Below are positions 14,827-26,571 of a stretch of 64,000 nt of DNA, piece by piece. The position numbers were made by a program, and so were the translations under genes. Source of the stretch: Acetobacteraceae bacterium (GTDB lineage: Bacteria > Pseudomonadota > Alphaproteobacteria > Acetobacterales > Acetobacteraceae); contig DAIDJM010000003.1 of assembly GCA_027451405.1 (NCBI GenBank), forward strand, positions 1-64,000, given 5' to 3'. Under the pieces are notes generated by a model. The model saw nothing but the letters and a program-made list of their open reading frames with translations, did not search any database and was not told the DNA's origin. The first letter of the stretch is position 1; each line of letters begins with the position of its first letter.

Positions 14827-15654
14827 ATGTCGATGCTGAGCTTCGAGAAGAAGTATCGGGTACGTGGCGGAACGCTGATCGGCGGCGATCTGTTCGACTT
14901 CTGGGTCGGGCCCTTCTATGTCGGCTTCTTCGGCGTCACCACGATTTTCTTCGCGGTGCTCGGCACCGCGTTGCTTGTGTACGGCGCCGCCATCGGCGGC
15001 ACCGCGGATATCTGGAAGATCAGCATCGCGCCGCCTGACCTGAAATACGGGCTGGGACTGGCACCGCTCGCGCATGGCGGGCTGTGGCAGCTGATCACGA
15101 TCTGTGCGACGGGCGCGTTCTGCTCCTGGGCGGCGCGCCAGGCGGAGATCGCGCGCAAGCTCGGCATGGGGCTGCATGTTCCGGTGGCGTTCAGTTTCGC
15201 CATTCTGGCCTATGTAACGCTCGAGATCATCCGGCCGTTCCTGCTCGGCGCCTGGGGAAATGGTTTTCCTTATGGCATTCTGAGCCATCTCGACTGGGTC
15301 TCGAATGTCGGGCACCAGTTCCTGCACTTCCACTACAATCCGGCGCATATGCTGGCGATCACGTTCTTCTTCACGAACGCGCTGGCACTGGCGCTGCACG
15401 GATCGCTCGTCCTGGGGGCGGCCAATCCCGGGCCCGGCGAGGTGGTGAAAGGGGCCGGACACGAGAACCAGTATTATCTGGATGCGATCGGCTGGTCGAT
15501 TGGGCCGCTCGGCATCCACCGGCTCGGCATCTTCCTGGCTTGCGGTGCGGCGTTCTTCAGCGCGGTCTGCATCCTGCTCAGCGGTCCGTTCTGGACCCGC
15601 GGCTGGCCGGAATGGTGGAACTGGTGGCTCAACCTGCCGGTCTACACGAAGTGA
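14827..15654 (+). CDS. pufL: Photosynthetic reaction centre L subunit PufL
   Basis: Five-helix membrane subunit of 275 residues that binds the special pair, bacteriopheophytin, QA/QB sites and non-haem iron together with Puf[32 protein letters not shown] is the classical L N-terminus. [33 protein letters not shown] carries special-pair and iron ligand His residues. [10 protein letters not shown] follows in helix E. A GGGAGA ribosome site precedes the ATG. Confidence 0.98.
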
Positions 15655-15663
15655 AATGAACGC

Positions 15664-15685
15664 GCCCGGCGCGCAGGCGCCGGGC
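15664..15685 (+). promoter_or_regulatory. Perfect hairpin between pufL and pufM
   Basis: gcccggcgc and gcgccgggc form a perfect 9-bp GC stem with a 4-base loop, ten bases after the pufL stop. There is no T-run, so an mRNA-stability or pausing role is more likely than termination. Confidence 0.5.
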
Positions 15686-15704
15686 ATCTCACGGGGATTG
15701 CGCC

Positions 15705-16697
15705 ATGGCCGCGTATCAAAACATCTTCACCCGGGTCCAGATACGAGGACCCATGCACACGGTGCCGCTCAAGCGCGGCAACGAGGACCGGTTCGGCAAG
15801 CCGTTCTTCTCGCACCTGCTCGGCCGGTTCGGCGATCCGCAAGTGGGTCCGCTCTATATCGGCCGGGTGGGGATCGCGTCGGTGGCCTGCGGGGCGATCG
15901 CGATCGTCATCATCGGGCTGAACATGGCGGCCTCGGTCGGGTTCAGCCCGACGCGGTTCGTCCATGAGCTGCCCTGGCTCGCGCTCGAGCCGCCGCCGCC
16001 GCAATACGGGCTGCACTTCCCGCCGCTGGCGCAGGGCGGGTGGTGGCTGATGGCCGGCTTCTTCCTCACCACCTCGATCCTGCTCTGGTGGGTGCGGATG
16101 TATCGCCGGGCGCGGGCGCTGGGCCTGGGCACGCACACGCCCTGGGCTTTCGCGTCGGCCATCTGGCTCTATCTGGTGCTCGGCTTCATCCGGCCGATCC
16201 TGATGGGGAGTTTCGCCGAGGCGCCGCCGTTCGGGGTTTTCCCGCACCTCGATTGGACCGCCTCCTTCTCAGTCCGCTACGGGAACCTATTCTACAATCC
16301 GTTCCACATGCTCTCGATCGCCTTCCTCTACGGTTCCGCGGTGCTGTTCGCCATGCATGGCGCGACGGTGCTGGCGACCACGCGCTACGGCGCGGAGCGG
16401 GAGGTGGAGCAGATCGTCGACCGGGGCACGGCCTTCGAGCGCGGCGGTCTGTTCTGGCGCTGGACCATGGGGTTCAACGCGACGGCGGAGAGCATCCATC
16501 GCTGGGCCTGGTGGTTCGCGGTGCTGGTGACGCTGACGGGGGGTATCGGCATCCTGCTGACCGGCACGGTGGTCGATAACTGGTTCATCTGGGGCGTGAA
16601 GCACGGCATCGCGCCGGACTACCCCTACTCGTTCGTCCCTGGAGGCGTTCAGGACCCGTCGCTGACTTGGCACGGATACACGGGAGCGACACCATGA
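15705..16697 (+). CDS. pufM: Photosynthetic reaction centre M subunit PufM
   Basis: Membrane subunit of 330 residues, partner of PufL. N-terminal [13 protein letters not shown], then five predicted spans. [25 protein letters not shown] carries the special-pair ligand and iron-ligand His residues, and [16 protein letters not shown] is helix E. The C-terminus ([21 protein letters not shown]) is long, as in species that have a bound tetraheme cytochrome. It overlaps pufC by four bases. Confidence 0.98.
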
Positions 16698-17761
16698 GCT
16701 TCGTATTGCGGCTGGCGGGCGCCGCCATTGTCACGGCCGCGGCGGGCCTGACCTTCACCTTCACGCATCCGCCGGTGACCACGATCCAGCGCGGCTACCG
16801 GGGCCTCGGACTCCAGGTGAACTACCTGCCGTCCTATGTGCAGAAATTGCGGGAGATCAACAAAGTTCCCGATCCGGAGCCGCCGATCGATCCGGCGGGG
16901 TCGCCCTCCTCGGACACCTACCAGAACGTCAAGGTGCTCGGGAAGGTGGACAGTCTCGAGTTCCTGCGGGTGATGGCCTCGATCAAGGACTGGGTGGCGC
17001 CGGTGCAGGGCTGCACCTACTGCCACCATCCGGACAATCCGGCCTGGGACGTGAAATACACGAAGATCGTCGCGCGGCGGATGCTGCAGATGGTCGAGCA
17101 CATCAACACGGACTGGGCGGTGCATGTCGGCAAGGTGGGGGTGACGTGCTATACCTGCCATCGCGGGCATCCGGTGCCGTCGCGCATCTGGTTCAACGCG
17201 CCGCCGCCGGCGCCGGCGCAGCTCGGCGGCATGGCGGAAGCGAATCAGGGCAAGAACATTCCGAACGTGACGGCGGGATATTCGTCGCTGCCCTATGATC
17301 CGCTCTCGCTCTATCTCGAGAAGGGCTACAACATCCGGGTGCAGGCGGCGGTCGCGTTGCCGGGGACCGACAGCAACTCGCTCAAGCACGCCGAGTGGAC
17401 CTATGCGCTGATGATGTATATCGCGCAGTCGCTCGGGGTGAACTGCGATTACTGCCACAACACGCGGGCGTTCCGGGACTGGGCGCAGAGCTCGCCGCAG
17501 CGGGTGAGGGCCTGGTATGGGATCCGCATGGTGCGGGACCTCAACAACAACTTCCTCGACAAGCTGCATGACGTGTTTCCGGCCTACCGGCTCGGGCCGA
17601 TGGGCGACTCGCCGAAGATCGGCTGTGCCACCTGCCACAAGGGCGTCTACAAGCCGCTCTACGGCATCAGCATGCTGGGGACCTATCCCGAGCTCGCGGC
17701 CAACGGTCTCGTGAACACGACGGCGGATATCGGGCACGTGATGCCCGTGCCGAAGGAGTAG
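16694..17761 (+). CDS. pufC: Reaction-centre tetraheme cytochrome c subunit PufC
   Basis: Re-reduces the photo-oxidised special pair from the periplasmic side. Four CxxCH haem sites are visible: CTYCH (107-111), CYTCH (152-156), CDYCH (251-255) and CATCH (311-315). Methionine-rich helices precede each. The N-terminal hydrophobic stretch ([19 protein letters not shown]) has no lipobox Cys, so it is probably a membrane anchor rather than a lipid-anchored form. The ATG at 16694 overlaps the pufM stop (ATGA). It is the last gene before an intrinsic terminator. The length of 355 is normal. Confidence 0.97.
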
Positions 17762-17812
17762 GGCCCAAGGCCGGCGCGTTCGCCGGCCCCCACGGCTTGG
17801 AACGACCCCAAA

Positions 17813-17839
17813 GGGCCCGCTTGCGGGCCCTTCTTTTTT
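17813..17839 (+). terminator. Intrinsic terminator of the puf operon
   Basis: gggcccgc-tt-gcgggccc followed by ttctttttt, a classic GC stem with a U-run, 52 bases after the pufC stop. A weaker ggccggcg/cgccggcc stem precedes it. Confidence 0.85.
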
Positions 17840-18151: not shown

Positions 18152-19597
18152 ATGGGGCGGAGCAAGAAGACGGGTTGGTGGGTGCGTTCGAGCCTACTCG
18201 CGCTGACGGCCGCGGGGGCGATCGGTATTGATGCGGCGACGCCGGCGCGGGCGGTTCCCGCGTTCGCGCAGCAGACGGGCTATGCCTGCGCGCAATGCCA
18301 TATCGGCGCGCTCGGTCCTCAGCTCACGCCGTTCGGGCGCATGTTCAAGATGCGCGGCTATTCGATCCGCGGCGGCGACCAGTGGTATTCGCATGTACCG
18401 GTCGCGGTGTGGATGCAGTTCGGCTTCGAGCACTACAACAAGGATCTGCCCGCCGGGTCATACGCCCATTATTACAACGCCAACGATAATGCCGGGCTCG
18501 ACGCGGTGAGTATCTTCATCGCGGGTGGCTGGCAGAACGATGCCGGCGTCGGCTTCGGCGCGTTCATCCAGACGACCTACGACAACACCGCCAAGACGAT
18601 CGCGGAAGACAACACCGACATCAAGGTGACCGATCAGATCACGCTGAACGGCAAGGACACGATCATCGGTGTGTCGCTGAACAACGGGCCTGGCGTGGCC
18701 GATCCCTATAACGACAACGGCATCTGGGGTTATCCCTATATCGGTCCCTTCATCGGGCTGGGCGGCAATGCCTCGCTTGCACTCGATGGCGGCGTGCTCC
18801 AGAGCAACACGGTCGGCGTGACCGGCTATATCTGGTACGACCAGAGCATCTATCTCGAGGCGGGCCTTTATACGTCGGAATCGCCGTGGCAGCTGCAGCA
18901 TACCGGCGAGGCCTACGGGCTGGGCAGCAACACCGGCGTCGAGCCGTATGTGCAGTTCGACAAGGCCTGGTTCTGGGGTCCGAACAATGCCCATGCCGGC
19001 TTCACGTTCTGGAACGGAAGGTTCAATCCGGTCAATCCGGCTGCCAAGTTCGGCACGATCGGCAATTACGGTCACAATACCTATACCGATTTGTGGTTCC
19101 AGCACGGGTATCAGTTCCTGAGCGACAACGACGTGCATGAGGTGGCCAATGACGGCTATCTCGGCATCGAGTGGCAGGATCTGAAAGGCTTCACGAACCC
19201 GAACAGCCCGCTCTACGGCAGTTCGAAGAACAGCAACATGCTGTATCACTGGCATGAGGGCGTGAATTATTTCTACCAGAACACCTATGGCTTCAACATC
19301 GCCTACGACAAAGTCTGGGGTAATAAGAACCAGCTTCTCTATAATAACGGTCTGAACGACGGCACGGGCAGCATCAAGGGCTCGCCGGATACCACTTTCT
19401 GGCTGTTCGAAGTGGATTGGGTGCCGTTCGGCAAGGAAGACCATTTCTGGCCGCTGCGTCCGTTCATCAATTGGCGGCTTGGTCTGCAGTACTATCTGTA
19501 CACGCAGTTCAATGGGGCGGGCCGCAACTATGACGGGTTCGGCCGGAATGCGTCCGACAACAATACCCTGTTCCTCTACCTCTGGACCGTTTTCTGA
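18152..19597 (+). CDS. Cyc2-like monoheme outer-membrane porin-cytochrome
   Basis: A 481-residue protein with a signal peptide (cleavage near PARA-VPAFA, residue 34) and then one haem c site, CAQCH (46-50), in the block FAQQTGYACAQCH...LTPFGRMFKMRGY. The remainder is about 410 residues rich in alternating aromatic/Gly segments ending in ...LYLWTVF, as expected for an outer-membrane beta-barrel with a terminal Phe. The layout of an N-terminal haem plug fused to a barrel is that of Cyc2-type iron oxidases, but also of broader uncharacterised porin-cytochromes. GGGGGAAG precedes the ATG at 18152. It lies next after the puf terminator and 11 bases before a soluble cytochrome c gene, suggesting electron input to the photosystem. 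Confidence 0.75.
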   Translation: MGRSKKTGWWVRSSLLALTAAGAIGIDAATPARAVPAFAQQTGYACAQCHIGALGPQLTPFGRMFKMRGYSIRGGDQWYSHVPVAVWMQFGFEHYNKDLPAGSYAHYYNANDNAGLDAVSIFIAGGWQNDAGVGFGAFIQTTYDNTAKTIAEDNTDIKVTDQITLNGKDTIIGVSLNNGPGVADPYNDNGIWGYPYIGPFIGLGGNASLALDGGVLQSNTVGVTGYIWYDQSIYLEAGLYTSESPWQLQHTGEAYGLGSNTGVEPYVQFDKAWFWGPNNAHAGFTFWNGRFNPVNPAAKFGTIGNYGHNTYTDLWFQHGYQFLSDNDVHEVANDGYLGIEWQDLKGFTNPNSPLYGSSKNSNMLYHWHEGVNYFYQNTYGFNIAYDKVWGNKNQLLYNNGLNDGTGSIKGSPDTTFWLFEVDWVPFGKEDHFWPLRPFINWRLGLQYYLYTQFNGAGRNYDGFGRNASDNNTLFLYLWTVF

Positions 19598-19608
19598 AGG
19601 GAGTCGCC

Positions 19609-19998
19609 ATGTCTGTTCGTAACCTCCTGGCGGGGCTTGCGCTCTCCGCCACCATCGCCGCCCCGGCGCTCGCGGCGGAGCCGCTCGCCGGCGATCCGCA
19701 GCACGGGCTGGAGATCTACAAGCACATCTGCTCGCTCTGCCATTCGAACAAGAAGGGCGTGATCGTGATCGGCCCACCGCTCTACGGCGCCTATGGCCGT
19801 AAGGTCGCGAGCTACCCGGGCTACCACTACTCCGAGGCGCTCAAGGCGAAGGACTGGACCTGGGACGTTCCCCACCTCCTGATCTGGGAAGCCGGCGCGC
19901 GGAAGATGGTGCCGGGCACCAAGATGTCGTTCCCGGGCCTGAAGAACCCGAAGGACCGGCAGGACATCATCGCGTATCTGCAGACGCTGCACGACTAA
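19609..19998 (+). CDS. Soluble class I cytochrome c (c2-like)
   Basis: A 129-residue periplasmic cytochrome with a signal peptide ending near ALA-AEP (22). The haem site is CSLCH (41-45) and the probable sixth ligand is Met106 in GTKMSFPGLKNPKDRQDIIAYLQTL, the typical C-terminal helix of cytochrome c2/mitochondrial-type c. GAAGGGA lies just upstream and overlaps the end of the porin-cytochrome gene, so the two are co-transcribed. A carrier between the outer-membrane protein and PufC, or the normal cyclic donor to the reaction centre, fits the context. Confidence 0.88.
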   Translation: MSVRNLLAGLALSATIAAPALAAEPLAGDPQHGLEIYKHICSLCHSNKKGVIVIGPPLYGAYGRKVASYPGYHYSEALKAKDWTWDVPHLLIWEAGARKMVPGTKMSFPGLKNPKDRQDIIAYLQTLHD

Positions 19999-20154
19999 GT
20001 CCCCGACGGACCGGGGGGTGCCGCGGCGAAACCGGGAGGCGGCCGGAGCGTCTCCCGGAGACGGCCAGAACCGCGTATGATCGCGGGGACCGGCCGGCTC
20101 CGGGCCGGCCGCCGCCGCAGACGCGGCGGCGGAGTTAGACGGAGGACAACGTTC

Positions 20155-20586
20155 ATGAACGCCAAGATTGCGGTGCTCGCAGCCACCTTCAGCCTTGCTG
20201 CGACCGGTGCGTTCGCGCAGACCAAAACCTATCTCGTGCATTTCGACGGCTCATGCCTCGGCATGCGCCTCAAGATCTTCAATGGCTACAATGTGCACGG
20301 GAACACGATCGGCTGCGGCGAAACCAAGCGGCTCTATGTCGGCACCATCAAGCAGGGTGACGTCGCCGACGTGAACAACGTGAATTCGGCCGAAGACCTG
20401 GTGAAGCTCAATTACGTCATCGGTCTGCGGAATCATACCTGGGTGCTGTATGAGACGCTGGACGGCAAGACCGAGGAAATCGGGAATGGCTTCTGGACCA
20501 AGCAAGGACCGGAAGTGACCGTCGAGAGCGTTCCCGGCGTGACGCCGCCTCCCGGCGCTGCTCCCGCTCAGCCTCAGAAGAAATAA
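20155..20586 (+). CDS. Small exported protein of unknown function
   Basis: 143 residues that I do not recognise. A signal peptide (MNAKIAVLAATFSLAATGAFA-QTK) is followed by a mature beta-rich domain with two Cys (34 and 54: GSCLGMRLK, TIGCGETK) that could form a disulfide. The C-terminal tail is Pro/Ala-rich (GVTPPPGAAPAQPQKK). The ATG is backed by GGAGGA at 20141-20146. It lies 156 bases after the cytochrome c gene, in a gap with GC hairpins (for example the gccgccgccg/cggcggcgg stem near 20110-20132), and may be the third gene of the same unit. It has no haem site. Confidence 0.7.
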   Translation: MNAKIAVLAATFSLAATGAFAQTKTYLVHFDGSCLGMRLKIFNGYNVHGNTIGCGETKRLYVGTIKQGDVADVNNVNSAEDLVKLNYVIGLRNHTWVLYETLDGKTEEIGNGFWTKQGPEVTVESVPGVTPPPGAAPAQPQKK

Positions 20587-21042: not shown

Positions 21043-24000
21043 GTGGCCATAACGGGCCCTCCCCGCACGACGGTCGAGGTGCCCGTGAGTTCCTATGCCT
21101 GGCTCGCAATCGGAGGTGGCGCGTGGTCGCTGGCTTCCAACTGGAACGACTTAACCGACGGGATCGACCCGTCGCTGACCGTGCCGGGTGCCTCGGACAG
21201 CGTGGCGATCGCGGGGCCGAGCGGCACCGCCATCGGCACGATCACCGGGGCGGGACAGGCGGCGAGCGCGGCGTTCAGCGGGAATACCGCGCTGGCGGGG
21301 AGCTTCGCGCTGGCGCAATGGGCGCTGGGGTCGGGCGGGACCGGGGGGCTGCTGGATATCGGCGCGGCCGCGTTGTTGCAGTCGGGCACGGGCACGATCG
21401 CCTCGGGCAGCGCGATCGTGGGTGGGACGGGAGCCTCGCTGTCGGTGGCGGGCACGCTGACCGTCGGCGCCGGGCTGAGCGGATTGGGGGCGGCGAGCGC
21501 GGCGCTCGATGCGACCGGCGGGGCCGTGGTTTCCGTCCAATCGCTGGTGCTCGATGGGAGTTCGGCGTCGCTCTTCGTGGATGCGAACTCGGTGCTCGAT
21601 GTCGGGGGCAGCGGGCAGGCCGCGGCTTCGGGCGCGCTGACGGTGGAGAGCGGGGGCACGCTGTCCGGGTTCGGCAATGCCGACGCTTACGGGACCCTGG
21701 TCAATGACGGCACGATCCGCGCGAGCGGCGGCGCGCTGATGATCGGCGCCGCCGGCGGCAGCGGGACGCTCGCGATCGCCGCCGGCGCCCTATTGGTGTG
21801 CAACGGGCGGACCGGGCCCGGACAGACCGTGGACTTCCTGGGCGCCGGGGGCACGCTGGCCTTTTCCACCGAGGCCGATGCGCCGCAGGGCATGCTGGCC
21901 GGGTTCGCGGCGGGTGACGCGATCGACGTGCTCGGCAGTCCGATCAGCGCCGCCTCCTGGTCGCAGACCAGCGCCTCGGGCGGTGTGCTGACGCTGTTCT
22001 ATGGCAACCAGGTGGCCGACAGCCTGACGCTGCTCGGCAATTACGGGGGCCAGGATTTCCTGGTCGGCGGCGATGGCGCCAACGGCAGTCTGATCACGCT
22101 GGCGGCGGCGGGCAGCGGCGGCGGGACGCTGAGCGGCGGCACCTCGACGCCGGACGCCTACGCCTGGATCGGCACCGGTTCGGCGGCCTGGGACAACCGG
22201 CTCGAATGGCAGGATCTGTCGAGCGGGGCCAATCCGGCGGCGGTCGCGCCCGGGCACAACGATCTCGTCACGATCGCGGCGCCGGCCACGCAGTTCATCG
22301 TCGTGAGCGGGCCGGGCGACGCGGCCTCGCTCGCCGTGAGCGGGGAGCTGGCGCTGGCCGGAAGCTTCGCGGTGGGGACGCTCGCGATCGGCAGCGGCAG
22401 CGCGCCGGGGGTGGTCGATCTGCTGCCGGGGACGGTTTTGACGGCGGCGCAAGGGACGCTGGCGAACGGGGCTCTGTCCGCGGTCGGGAGCGGCACGACG
22501 CTGTCGGTCGCGGGGACATGGGCTCTCGGCGGCGGGCCGGCGGGCGTGGGGCTGCCGGCGACGACGCTATCGGCGCTGTCGGGGGCGACGATCGCGCTCG
22601 GCGGGCTCGTGCTCGGCGGCGGTTCGGGCAACACGGTCGTGACCGATACGACCGGACGGATCGAAATCGGCACGCTCGGCGGCGCGGCGGCGGGGGCGGT
22701 GACGGTCGATCCGGGGGCGACCTTGGCGGGCAACGGGTCGGTGAACCCGTTCGGCAACGTCGTGGATAACGGCACCATCGCGGCCTCGGGCGGGACGCTG
22801 ACGCTGGGGCGCGTCGGCGGCACCGGGGCGCTATCGATCGGGGCCGGGGCGACGCTGTCGCTCGAGGCGCAGACGGCGGTGCCGATCGCGTTCGCGGGGG
22901 CGGACGGCACGTTGCGGATCGCCGGCGAGCTGGCGGCGCCGACCGGGACATTGAGCGGGTTCGCGGTGGGCGACGCGATCGATGTCGTGGGCGATCCGAT
23001 CACCTACGCGCAGTTCGTGGCCGGCAGCGTGACCGGCACCGGGACGCTGGTGCTGAGCTACGACACCACCATCGTCGCGCGGATCCCGGTCTCCGGCAGT
23101 TTCACCGGCAATTTTTTCGCCGTCACGCCGGATGGGGCGGGGGGCACCGATTTGGTGCTGACCCGCGGCGGCGGCAGCGGGGGCAGCGGCGGGCAGGGCA
23201 ATGCCGACCTGCTTTCCTGGACCAATCCGGTGAGCGGCAAGTGGTCGCAGGCGAGCAACTGGACCGATCTCACGACCGGGCAGCCGGCGACGGCGCCGCC
23301 GGGCAGCCTCAACGCGGTGCTGATCACCGGGCCGTCGAACGGGACGTTTCAGACGGTGGGCGGGCCCGCGAATTGCGCGAGCCTGACGCTGATCGGCGAC
23401 AATGTGCTCGCGCAGGGCTACGCGGTGGGCACGCTGACGGTGGGCAGCGGGAGCACGGCCGGGGTCGTCGCGCTTTCGGGCACGCTCGCGAGCCAGAGCG
23501 CGTCGATTCTCGACGGCACCTTGGCGCTCACCGGGATCGGGGACGTCTGGACCGATGCCGGCACGCTGACGCTGGGTAGCGGCGCGGCGGGACAGGGCAC
23601 TGCCAGCACGCTGGTTTCGCTGACCCGGTCGGCGAGCGTGCAGACGGCCGGGCTCGTGCTCGGGGGTGGGCTCGGCGACACGATCACCGTGGATCCGACC
23701 GCCGTCTTCGAGGTGGGAACGGTGGGCGGCGCGGCAGCCGGGGCGGTCACGATCGACCCGGGCATCCTGGTGGCCGGCAACGGCAGCCTTAATCCCTTCG
23801 GGTCGGTGGTCGATAACGGCACGCTGACGGCGCAGGGAGGAACGCTGGCACTCGGCGCGACGAGCGGCGCAGGGACGATCACGATCGCGGCGGAGGCGAC
23901 GCTCGCGCTGGGCGGCGGCGAGTCGGTGGGGATCGGTTTCGCGGGGGCCGGGGCGACGCTCTGGCTCGGCGCCGGGACGCCGGCCGGGGTGATCGACGGG

Positions 24001-26571
24001 TTCGCGCCCGGCGACCAGATCGTGCTGGCCGGAAGCCTGCTCACCGGCGTGAGCTACGCGCCGGGCAGCGGCGGGATCGGCACGCTCACGCTCAGCTATG
24101 GCGGCCAGGCGGTGGGTTCGTTGTTGCTGGCCGGGAACTATGCCGGGGACGTGTTCTCGCTGCTGCCGGACGGGAGCGGAACGGCGATCGTGGTGAATGG
24201 CGGAGGCGGAGGCCCCTCGGGCGGGACCGCGACGCCGGACCAATATGTCTGGACCGGGGCGGCGGCGGACGGGCTCTGGAACGATGCCGGGAACTGGCAG
24301 GATCGGAGCGCGGGGCTCGATCCGGCGGCGGTGGCGCCGGGGCTGAACGATCTGGTCACCATCGTCGGCCCCGCCTCGGGGCTGCTCGCGATCGCGGGGC
24401 CGGCGGACGCGGCCTCGCTCACGCTTGTGGGCGGGGTGGCGCTGGCGGGCGCCTATGCGGTGGGGGCGCTCAGCGTCGCGGGGACGCTGGTGCTGGGCCC
24501 GGCCGGAACGCTGACCGCCGCGAGCGGCGTCCTTGCGGGGAGCGTGCTGGGCGAGGGGGGCACGCTCAGCCTTTCCGGGACCGCGACGCTCGGGCCGACG
24601 GGCGCGCTCGATGCGATGTCGGGCGCATGGCTCGAGATGGGGTCGCTGACGCTGGACGGGGGCGTGGTCGCGACCGACGCTGCGGGATCGGTGGAGATCG
24701 GCACGGGCGGCGGGCCGGTGGCCGGGGCGATCACGGTCGATCCGGGGGCGGAACTGGCCGGTAACGGACGGGTCGGGCTCGGCGGGCGGATCGTCGATGA
24801 CGGGATGATCGCGGCCTCGGGGGGCACGCTCTCGCTCGGCGCGGTGAGCGGGAGCGGGACGCTCGAGATCGGCGTGGGGGCGACGCTGGCGCTCGAGGCG
24901 GGCGCGGCCGGGGTGGTGATCGATTTCGCGGGGCCCGGAACGCTCGCGATCGCGCCGGGGGCGATGCCGCAGGCCGCGATCGCCGATTTCACCGCCGGCG
25001 ACGCGATCGTGCTGCCGCTCAGTGGTATTACGGGGACGCAATATACGCAGACGGCGCCCGGCCTCGGCACGCTCGCGTTGCTGGCCGGCAATCAGGTGGC
25101 CGGCACGCTGACGCTGCTCGGCGTCGGCAGCGGCCAGAGTTTCACCATCACGACCGGGCCCGGCTCGACCGTGTTGACAACAGAGCCCGCAACGAACGGG
25201 ACCGGAGGCACCATGGGACAGCAGGGAAATTATCAATCGGGACCGGAGGATGCCGGCACTTTCGTGGCCAGCCTGCCCTATTACCAGCAATATTGGGTGG
25301 GGCACGTTCTGGGGATGGGCAGTTCGAGCGGGGCGCTCGAGGCCTATCTGCAGGTCTCGCCGGACGGCGTGACCTGGGGCGCGTATCAGCCATTCTACGG
25401 CAATGTCGGGATCGATGCCGCGGCCTCGGCCTATCAGAAGATCGTGGTGCCGTCGGGCTATATCGCGATGCTGGCGCAGGGCAGCGAGCCGCTCACGATC
25501 GTGGACTGGAATGCGTTGCCGGCGGTGCTGGTGGGCAATGCCGGGATCGATTCGATTTTCGGCGCGACCGGCGACACGATCGTGGGCGGCACCGGCCCGG
25601 GCGATCTGCTGTGGGCGGACGGCGCGACCGGCACCATTATCGGTTCTGCCAACGATACGATCATCACGGGGCAGGGCAATGACAGCGTGCAGAGCTCCAC
25701 GGGGCGCAGCCTGATTTTCGTGGGCTCCGGACAGGATTCGGTGCAGAGCAACGGCAGCGACACGGTGATCTGCACGTCCAACGAGGTCAGCGCCTCGACC
25801 GTGACGGCGGCAGGCAGCGACGTGATCTGGGGCCCCAATCTCGGCCAGCTCACTTTCGTGGGCGGCGCCGGCGCCAGCACGGTCGTGGGCGGCAGCGGCA
25901 CGACGATTTTTCACGGCGGCAGCGGATCGGGCGGTGTTTTCTGGGGGTATCGCGCGGCGCTCGCGGAATATATCGGCGGCAGCGGGTCGGCGACCGTGGT
26001 CGGCGGCACCGGCGCGCTCGACGTGGTGGGCGGGGCCGGCAACATCACGGTATTCGGCGGCACCGGTTACGCCGACATTCAAGGTGCCGCGGGTGGAAGC
26101 CAGTATATCGTGGGCACGGGTCCGAGCGCGGTCGATGCCGCGTCGGGCAACGCGGTGTGGCTCGTGGGCGGCGCCAACAACACGCTCGTCGCGAGCGGCG
26201 GCAATGTCGTGCTGTCGGGCGGCGCCTCCTACGGCAACAACGAATACACGATCGGCGACGGACCCTGCACCGTGATCGGCGGCCATGGCAGCGATACCAT
26301 CAATACCGGGGGTGGTCCGGCCACCATTTTCGGCGGCAGCGGCAGCGCGCTCATCGCGTTTACCAACGGCGTGCCGCATGGCGCCGATCTGATCGCGAAC
26401 TTCAACGTGAATCTCGATAAGATCGGGCTATACGGCTATTCGGGCGGGGCCGCCGCGGTGCTGGCGACGCAGCACGTATCGGGCGGGAATACGTATCTGA
26501 CGTTGCAGGACGGGACGCAGCTGACCTTGCTTGGGGTGAGCGGGTTGAACGCGACGAATTTTGTGACGTGA
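21043..26571 (+). CDS. Giant Gly/Ala-rich repeat protein with RTX-like C-terminus (putative secreted adhesin)
   Basis: Up to 1842 residues, beginning at GTG 21043, or more likely at GTG 21085 (GAGG six bases upstream). Four modules of about 350 residues start near bases 21091, 22158, 23206 and 24238. Each opens with a W-rich block (YAWxGxGxxxWxxxxNWxDLT) and continues as short Gly/Thr beta-strand repeats ending in DxIDVxGSPI- and LTLLGNYxGQxF-like segments, suggesting a beta-solenoid. After a linker (about 25200-25530) come GG-rich RTX/haemolysin-like repeats (GGSGSATVVGGTGALDVVGG). The C-terminus (LTLQDGTQLTLLGVSGLNATNFVT) resembles type I secretion substrates. There is no signal peptide. 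No secretion genes lie nearby. Surface adhesion is an inference. Confidence 0.8.
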   Translation: MAITGPPRTTVEVPVSSYAWLAIGGGAWSLASNWNDLTDGIDPSLTVPGASDSVAIAGPSGTAIGTITGAGQAASAAFSGNTALAGSFALAQWALGSGGTGGLLDIGAAALLQSGTGTIASGSAIVGGTGASLSVAGTLTVGAGLSGLGAASAALDATGGAVVSVQSLVLDGSSASLFVDANSVLDVGGSGQAAASGALTVESGGTLSGFGNADAYGTLVNDGTIRASGGALMIGAAGGSGTLAIAAGALLVCNGRTGPGQTVDFLGAGGTLAFSTEADAPQGMLAGFAAGDAIDVLGSPISAASWSQTSASGGVLTLFYGNQVADSLTLLGNYGGQDFLVGGDGANGSLITLAAAGSGGGTLSGGTSTPDAYAWIGTGSAAWDNRLEWQDLSSGANPAAVAPGHNDLVTIAAPATQFIVVSGPGDAASLAVSGELALAGSFAVGTLAIGSGSAPGVVDLLPGTVLTAAQGTLANGALSAVGSGTTLSVAGTWALGGGPAGVGLPATTLSALSGATIALGGLVLGGGSGNTVVTDTTGRIEIGTLGGAAAGAVTVDPGATLAGNGSVNPFGNVVDNGTIAASGGTLTLGRVGGTGALSIGAGATLSLEAQTAVPIAFAGADGTLRIAGELAAPTGTLSGFAVGDAIDVVGDPITYAQFVAGSVTGTGTLVLSYDTTIVARIPVSGSFTGNFFAVTPDGAGGTDLVLTRGGGSGGSGGQGNADLLSWTNPVSGKWSQASNWTDLTTGQPATAPPGSLNAVLITGPSNGTFQTVGGPANCASLTLIGDNVLAQGYAVGTLTVGSGSTAGVVALSGTLASQSASILDGTLALTGIGDVWTDAGTLTLGSGAAGQGTASTLVSLTRSASVQTAGLVLGGGLGDTITVDPTAVFEVGTVGGAAAGAVTIDPGILVAGNGSLNPFGSVVDNGTLTAQGGTLALGATSGAGTITIAAEATLALGGGESVGIGFAGAGATLWLGAGTPAGVIDGFAPGDQIVLAGSLLTGVSYAPGSGGIGTLTLSYGGQAVGSLLLAGNYAGDVFSLLPDGSGTAIVVNGGGGGPSGGTATPDQYVWTGAAADGLWNDAGNWQDRSAGLDPAAVAPGLNDLVTIVGPASGLLAIAGPADAASLTLVGGVALAGAYAVGALSVAGTLVLGPAGTLTAASGVLAGSVLGEGGTLSLSGTATLGPTGALDAMSGAWLEMGSLTLDGGVVATDAAGSVEIGTGGGPVAGAITVDPGAELAGNGRVGLGGRIVDDGMIAASGGTLSLGAVSGSGTLEIGVGATLALEAGAAGVVIDFAGPGTLAIAPGAMPQAAIADFTAGDAIVLPLSGITGTQYTQTAPGLGTLALLAGNQVAGTLTLLGVGSGQSFTITTGPGSTVLTTEPATNGTGGTMGQQGNYQSGPEDAGTFVASLPYYQQYWVGHVLGMGSSSGALEAYLQVSPDGVTWGAYQPFYGNVGIDAAASAYQKIVVPSGYIAMLAQGSEPLTIVDWNALPAVLVGNAGIDSIFGATGDTIVGGTGPGDLLWADGATGTIIGSANDTIITGQGNDSVQSSTGRSLIFVGSGQDSVQSNGSDTVICTSNEVSASTVTAAGSDVIWGPNLGQLTFVGGAGASTVVGGSGTTIFHGGSGSGGVFWGYRAALAEYIGGSGSATVVGGTGALDVVGGAGNITVFGGTGYADIQGAAGGSQYIVGTGPSAVDAASGNAVWLVGGANNTLVASGGNVVLSGGASYGNNEYTIGDGPCTVIGGHGSDTINTGGGPATIFGGSGSALIAFTNGVPHGADLIANFNVNLDKIGLYGYSGGAAAVLATQHVSGGNTYLTLQDGTQLTLLGVSGLNATNFVT

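Follow-up and report, generated by a model that had tools for sequence, protein, structure and literature searches.

The Cyc2 proteins of iron oxidisers (Mariprofundus, Acidithiobacillus) carry a signal peptide, one N-terminal CxxCH and a predicted 16-strand barrel, and have a cytochrome c as neighbour (PMC8406198). We observed the same combination at the locus described here, the barrel as a low-confidence prediction. A similarity network ties the Cyc2 of A. ferrooxidans to homologues in Acidiphilium, Acidisphaera and Acidocella (PMC10654088). For the Acetobacteraceae, the main text of Degli Esposti et al. 2023 (PMC10715153) describes Cyc2 next to cytochromes with one or two haems, both in acidophilic and in photosynthetic members, and argues for ancestral photoferrotrophy in this family, so the statement of a preliminary description that an iron- or electrode-fed phototrophic route was not known for this group was too strong. 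Our locus is alike in protein family, bacterial family and the adjoining mono- or dihaem type of cytochrome c, but lies beside pufC, a linkage not given in that main text, in which COX is the acceptor. It is located in a stretch of 64,000 nucleotides, analysed as a whole and referred to below as the window, from a host genome of 3.37 Mb in 67 contigs that is of Acetobacteraceae type, as judged by its gene content and relatives, and is the single representative of its own genus in our family sample.

Chlorobium belongs to the green sulfur bacteria, which have a different type of reaction centre. The Cyc2 of its photoferrotrophic members, which belongs to cluster 1, is likewise proposed to supply electrons from Fe(II) to phototrophy (PMC8302410). 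'Candidatus Solisferrum', a phototrophic member of the Ferrovaceae, resembles the window host in having Cyc2 (cluster 2) and PufLM in one genome, but the accessible text reports no gene linkage and its authors favour thiosulfate as the phototrophic donor (PMC13390463). The PioAB(C) system of purple photoferrotrophs, like the route proposed below, joins entry at the outer membrane and a periplasmic carrier to a purple-type reaction centre, but with a separate porin and a decahaem cytochrome, which are unrelated proteins (PMC6831781). In the openly available full texts searched, the passages on Cyc2 and pufC describe no linkage of the two ('cyc2' denotes cytochrome c2 in the accessible part of PMC6739100). 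Three things reported below seem to be new, namely the link to pufC, the apparently double origin of this link, and the slot for carriers.

The locus behind pufC

The photosynthesis cluster of the window contained bchC, bchX, bchY, bchZ, pufB, pufL, pufM and pufC, all above the NCBIfam equivalog cut-offs. A Cyc2-like gene, a c550 gene and a small two-Cys gene were observed 3' of pufC, in that order and on one strand, giving the following features:

14827-16697, forward strand: pufL (14827-15654) and pufM (15705-16697), reaction-centre subunits (NCBIfam)
16694-17761, forward strand: pufC, tetrahaem reaction-centre cytochrome and proposed electron acceptor (NF040706, 434 bits against a cut-off of 150)
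17811-17832, forward strand: terminator-like hairpin followed by a T run, between pufC and the Cyc2-like gene
18152-19597, forward strand: Cyc2-like fused cytochrome-porin, 481 aa, one N-terminal haem c site, predicted 16-strand barrel
19609-19998, forward strand: class I cytochrome of the c550 type, 129 aa, signal peptide, putative periplasmic partner, probably co-transcribed with the preceding gene
20155-20586, forward strand: small exported two-Cys protein, probably outside the module

The preliminary description had placed a protein with a single N-terminal haem c site, a soluble class I cytochrome c and a small exported two-Cys protein directly behind pufC and a terminator, and each of these elements was recovered. 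The 390 bp between the end of pufC and the start of the Cyc2-like gene include the hairpin, the 481-aa product has one CxxCH (residues 46-50), and the cytochrome, which starts 11 bp further on, exceeds the Pfam PF00034 cut-off. The terminator-like hairpin would split pufC and the Cyc2-like gene into separate transcripts. No PpsR-type site (TGTN12ACA) was found upstream of the Cyc2-like gene, and PpsR-type control was set aside for that reason. The product of 20155-20586 had no Pfam or NCBIfam family match, and its homologues were weak, rare (four other genomes) and unlinked, so we do not count it as part of the module; of the trio first described, only the pair of Cyc2-like and c550 genes is conserved. 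Further along the same strand (21043-26571) lies a Gly/Ala-rich repetitive open frame of 1842 aa, similar in character to secreted repeat proteins and with no NCBIfam match.

The Cyc2-like protein and its family

By inspection, the signal peptide of the Cyc2-like protein ends in ...TPARA and is followed by AVPAFAQQTGYACAQCHIGALGPQLTPFGRMFKMRGY, which contains the CxxCH. The C-terminus is ...LYLWTVF, and a terminal phenylalanine is usual in outer-membrane barrels. AlphaFold, run with a three-row alignment, placed 16 strands behind the N-terminal haem segment at low confidence (mean pLDDT 38, pTM 0.41). The best Foldseek matches in the PDB were nearly all outer-membrane porins (OmpF, OmpC, OccK/OprD and the R. 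blastica porin), none of them below E 0.001. No solved structure with a sequence match was found, and the viral contigs searched for extra homologues for the structure prediction yielded none. An outer-membrane barrel, as first proposed, is likely rather than proven: the strand number and the porin matches speak for it, but the model is of low confidence.

Cyc2-like homologues were found in 80 of 299 genomes of the family, with E-values down to 1e-147 outside the host genome, and the haem site was retained in every aligned homologue. At the level of sequence, the family match of the window protein is far beyond chance. A phylum-wide sample gave matches in 80 of 398 genomes, mostly from one family of small genomes with a canonical AIPAFARQTGAACLSCHFQSFPTL block, which we infer to be Zetaproteobacteria carrying cluster 1 Cyc2. 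These presumed cluster 1 sequences were the only references to the published clusters in our Cyc2 tree, as a scan of named genomes gave only two loci. The window protein was sister (100/100) to its nearest homologue, found in genome G177 and 52% identical, and both fell inside an Acetobacteraceae group of 31 sequences (support 82/99). This clade lies outside presumed cluster 1, and the branch between the two, whose position is unsure, is about 3.5 changes per site long.

In the definition of Keffer et al. 2021 (PMC8406198), Cyc2 is exported, at least 365 aa long and has only one CxxCH, near the N-terminus, which also describes the window protein. They further give the motif AXPXFAR[Q/K][T/Y], placed shortly before the haem site. 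The window protein has AVPAFAQQT at an unchanged distance from CxxCH, with Gln in the place of the Arg of iron-oxidiser Cyc2, and its PQL lies 5 residues behind CxxCH as against about 4 in the published PXL criterion and 4 in presumed cluster 1 (3, 4 or 5 in the wider set). The strict motif was present in 2 of the 31 sequences of the window's clade versus all 14 presumed zetaproteobacterial Cyc2. Sequences without it were screened out by Keffer et al., and most of the window's clade would therefore be absent from their tree. Thus the architecture behind the earlier Cyc2-like identification stood, while strict Cyc2 membership was not supported, given the broken motif and the very long branch to presumed cluster 1. 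The window protein is a member of the wider Cyc2-like (fused cytochrome-porin) family and falls on a branch of Acetobacteraceae sequences most of which lack the published motif.

Most members of the clade have lost the conserved Arg of the Cyc2 motif, which would fit a protein that is no growth-related conduit but a porin capped by haem, acting in transport, sensing or defence against stress, the c550 then serving another pathway. Homologues are also widespread among bacteria of soil and lichens that are not known to oxidise iron, and Keffer et al. (PMC8406198) regard the function of distant Cyc2 homologues as uncertain. However, the haem site is present in all aligned homologues and the usual neighbour is a gene for a periplasmic electron carrier, and we consider such a role improbable.

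The host genome also contains a second Cyc2-like gene (L053, contig C9, 8912-10886), with AIPLYARQT...CAACHIVFPEL and followed by a dihaem cytochrome c. It lies on a different branch from that of the window and has a counterpart in G177. A Cyc2-like gene was observed on a plasmid filed as Acidithiobacillus ferrooxidans (H1, CP084173.1, 49689-50942), with match figures identical to those of Acidiphilium cryptum plasmid pACRY03 (H2, NC_009469.1, 1384-2637), which would reflect either transfer or a mixed culture.

pufC neighbourhoods in the family

Among the 299 family genomes, Cyc2-like genes were found in 80, PufM in 96 and both in 29, versus 25.7 expected (Fisher P = 0.40). PufM was absent from 51 of the 80 genomes with a Cyc2-like gene. 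Because co-occurrence is not significantly above expectation, the family-wide role of the Cyc2-like proteins is not tied to phototrophy, and their general role is not phototrophic. These counts favour respiratory electron entry as an explanation of the window locus, in which electrons from external Fe(II) or another donor would pass through the Cyc2-like protein and c550 to a terminal oxidase, the position beside pufC being incidental or convenient. The conservation of the Cyc2-like/c550 pair away from puf, the separate transcript predicted for the Cyc2-like gene, and the COX acceptor named in the main text of Degli Esposti et al. (PMC10715153) favour it as well.

Linkage to the puf operon was not kept in relatives generally. 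Of the other 28 genomes in which both genes occur, none had a puf operon beside the Cyc2-like gene, although many of these assemblies are too fragmented to be decisive. A lack of conserved linkage had been named beforehand as speaking against the proposal, and as far as a conserved operon is concerned it does. In the well-assembled G061, G142, G152 and G231 the two were about 200 kb to several Mb apart. Any pufC neighbour at all was observed in 1 of the 28 (G177), and there as an orphan copy, so a conserved puf-cyc2 operon was rejected.

In G177, the nearest homologue of the window gene lies tail-to-tail with this second, orphan pufC (452 bits against a cut-off of 150), whose product has four haem sites and is 58% identical to the window PufC. 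No pufLM adjoins it, and a homoserine-dehydrogenase-like frame lies upstream. Behind the Cyc2-like gene and on its strand lies a HiPIP gene, recognisable by the cysteine pattern of its product, and no c550 adjoins. In a tree of PufC sequences, that of the window groups with the one from G079 (100/98), and the G177 orphan nests in its own genus (100/100), a position that argues against mis-binning of the 7.4 kb contig. The Cyc2-like proteins of the two loci are sisters, but their PufCs are not and the genes are oriented differently, so the two pufC neighbourhoods appear to have arisen separately: this Cyc2 branch apparently came to adjoin pufC twice, independently. A shared inherited pufC-cyc2 locus in the host and G177 is unsupported, the PufCs being of different clades and the orientation different. 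By a rough, post hoc estimate that rests on one further case, the chance that a given gene adjoins either of two pufC genes comes to about 0.1% (4 flanking slots among about 3,900 genes). The proposed linkage to pufC itself is thereby borne out in part, through a second, apparently independent neighbourhood in the genome of the nearest homologue. That this homologue adjoins pufC too, with PufCs of different lineages, counts against respiratory entry.

Further reaction-centre genes were observed during the survey. The host genome has a second, divergent operon, pufL-pufM-pufC-puhA-puhB (L101, contig C45, 7217-11298), with no LH1 gene found adjoining and a PufC 41% identical to the first. Similar sets were found in G127, G107 and G205, and a comparable incomplete cluster lies on an integrating conjugative element in Citromicrobium JL354 (PMC3338782). 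In five genomes of the family the PufM match runs through a single in-frame stop codon, TAG or TGA (G142:C1:2502909-2503868; G075:C41; G257:C195; G187:C44; G256:C360).

Soluble carriers and a candidate route to PufC

In 23 of 30 loci of the family, a c550-type gene lay no more than 2.5 kb from the Cyc2-like gene, and a c550 is thus a conserved partner, in agreement with the soluble cytochrome noted earlier. The window c550 falls in the half of the c550 tree that otherwise holds only cyc2-adjacent c550s (25 rows), apart from 20 pufC-adjacent ones, a weak placement with forks of 86/88, 81/89 and 90/75 and a long branch of its own. This grouping suggests that the pair probably came to the spot behind pufC as one unit, and it does not favour, again weakly, the window c550 being the ordinary pufC-adjacent donor of relatives. 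The locus fits the Acetobacteraceae Cyc2-like/c550 pair, in that the genes are close and both fall in the family's own clades (the c550 with the weak placement given above). A second c550-type gene is encoded elsewhere in the host genome.

Of 36 puf loci sampled from relatives, 17 carried c550 and/or HiPIP genes within 3 kb behind pufC, several of the remaining loci ending at contig ends. The c550-like domains in this slot, one or two per locus, lay on the strand of pufC, and the HiPIP genes on the opposite strand. The slot is thus a regular home of soluble carriers that could reduce PufC. The usual presence of carrier genes there is a second point against respiratory entry, which on balance we regard as somewhat unlikely.

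HiPIP was not found in the host genome with PF01355 or with a HiPIP protein query, and was dropped as a candidate carrier there; PF01355 also missed the G177 HiPIP, so the protein query carries the weight. HiPIP genes were observed near Cyc2-like genes in unrelated genomes, namely a Caballeronia plasmid and three genomes of the same class (L055, L063, L064, L074), with tandem HiPIPs in two. HiPIP may be a recurrent Cyc2 partner.

Our leading reading, a tentative one whose chances we see as almost evenly balanced, is that 18152-19998 is a two-gene electron-entry module feeding PufC and the reaction centre, most plausibly from Fe(II). At the cell surface, the Cyc2-like protein, as an outer-membrane porin plugged by one haem c, would take electrons from a donor, and these would be ferried across the periplasm by the soluble c550. 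The main receiver would be the tetrahaem cytochrome PufC, followed by the photo-oxidised reaction centre (special pair). The place behind pufC, together with the orphan pufC and HiPIP neighbourhood in G177, suggests PufC as this receiver. The host genome encodes the RuBisCO large subunit, and with RuBisCO the module would let the cell grow by light on electrons from outside, dissolved Fe(II) being the most plausible donor. The locus hints at such growth, whether on iron or on some other source of electrons outside the cell. Points against the PufC route are that there are only two cases of linkage, with the 27 other genomes carrying both genes unlinked; that Cyc2-like genes are no commoner in phototrophs; and the terminator, the lack of a PpsR-type site near the gene and the lack of an adjoining c550 in G177.

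Electrons could also run outwards through the same proteins, to Fe(III) or some other acceptor outside the cell, for example to relieve over-reduction in light or at low oxygen. According to the main text of PMC10715153, Fe(III) reducers include Acidiphilium and Acidocella, and isoforms of Cyc2/Cyc1 have been implicated in the reduction of ferric iron by acidithiobacilli. Cyc2-like genes were found in Acidocella aromatica and on Acidiphilium plasmids, but these homologues lie on a different branch from the window's, and neighbourhoods with PufC, HiPIP and a high-potential-type c550 better fit supply to an oxidised reaction centre. We therefore consider outward flow quite improbable.

Beyond the module feeding PufC, these loci may point to a dedicated, light-driven electron-uptake chain of purple-type phototrophs, running from the single-haem Cyc2-like protein through c550 or HiPIP to PufC, replacing PioAB or Fox and assembled at least twice independently as this Cyc2 branch came to adjoin a pufC gene. 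We regard this broader proposal as possible, with doubt prevailing. If true, it would add a further route by which external electrons reach purple-type phototrophs, in which one small protein replaces a porin-decahaem complex. Cyc2 function would then extend to a clade in which hardly any member passes the motif filter by which Cyc2 has been defined. For the Acetobacteraceae, the locus would make the published idea of ancestral photoferrotrophy directly testable by knock-out.
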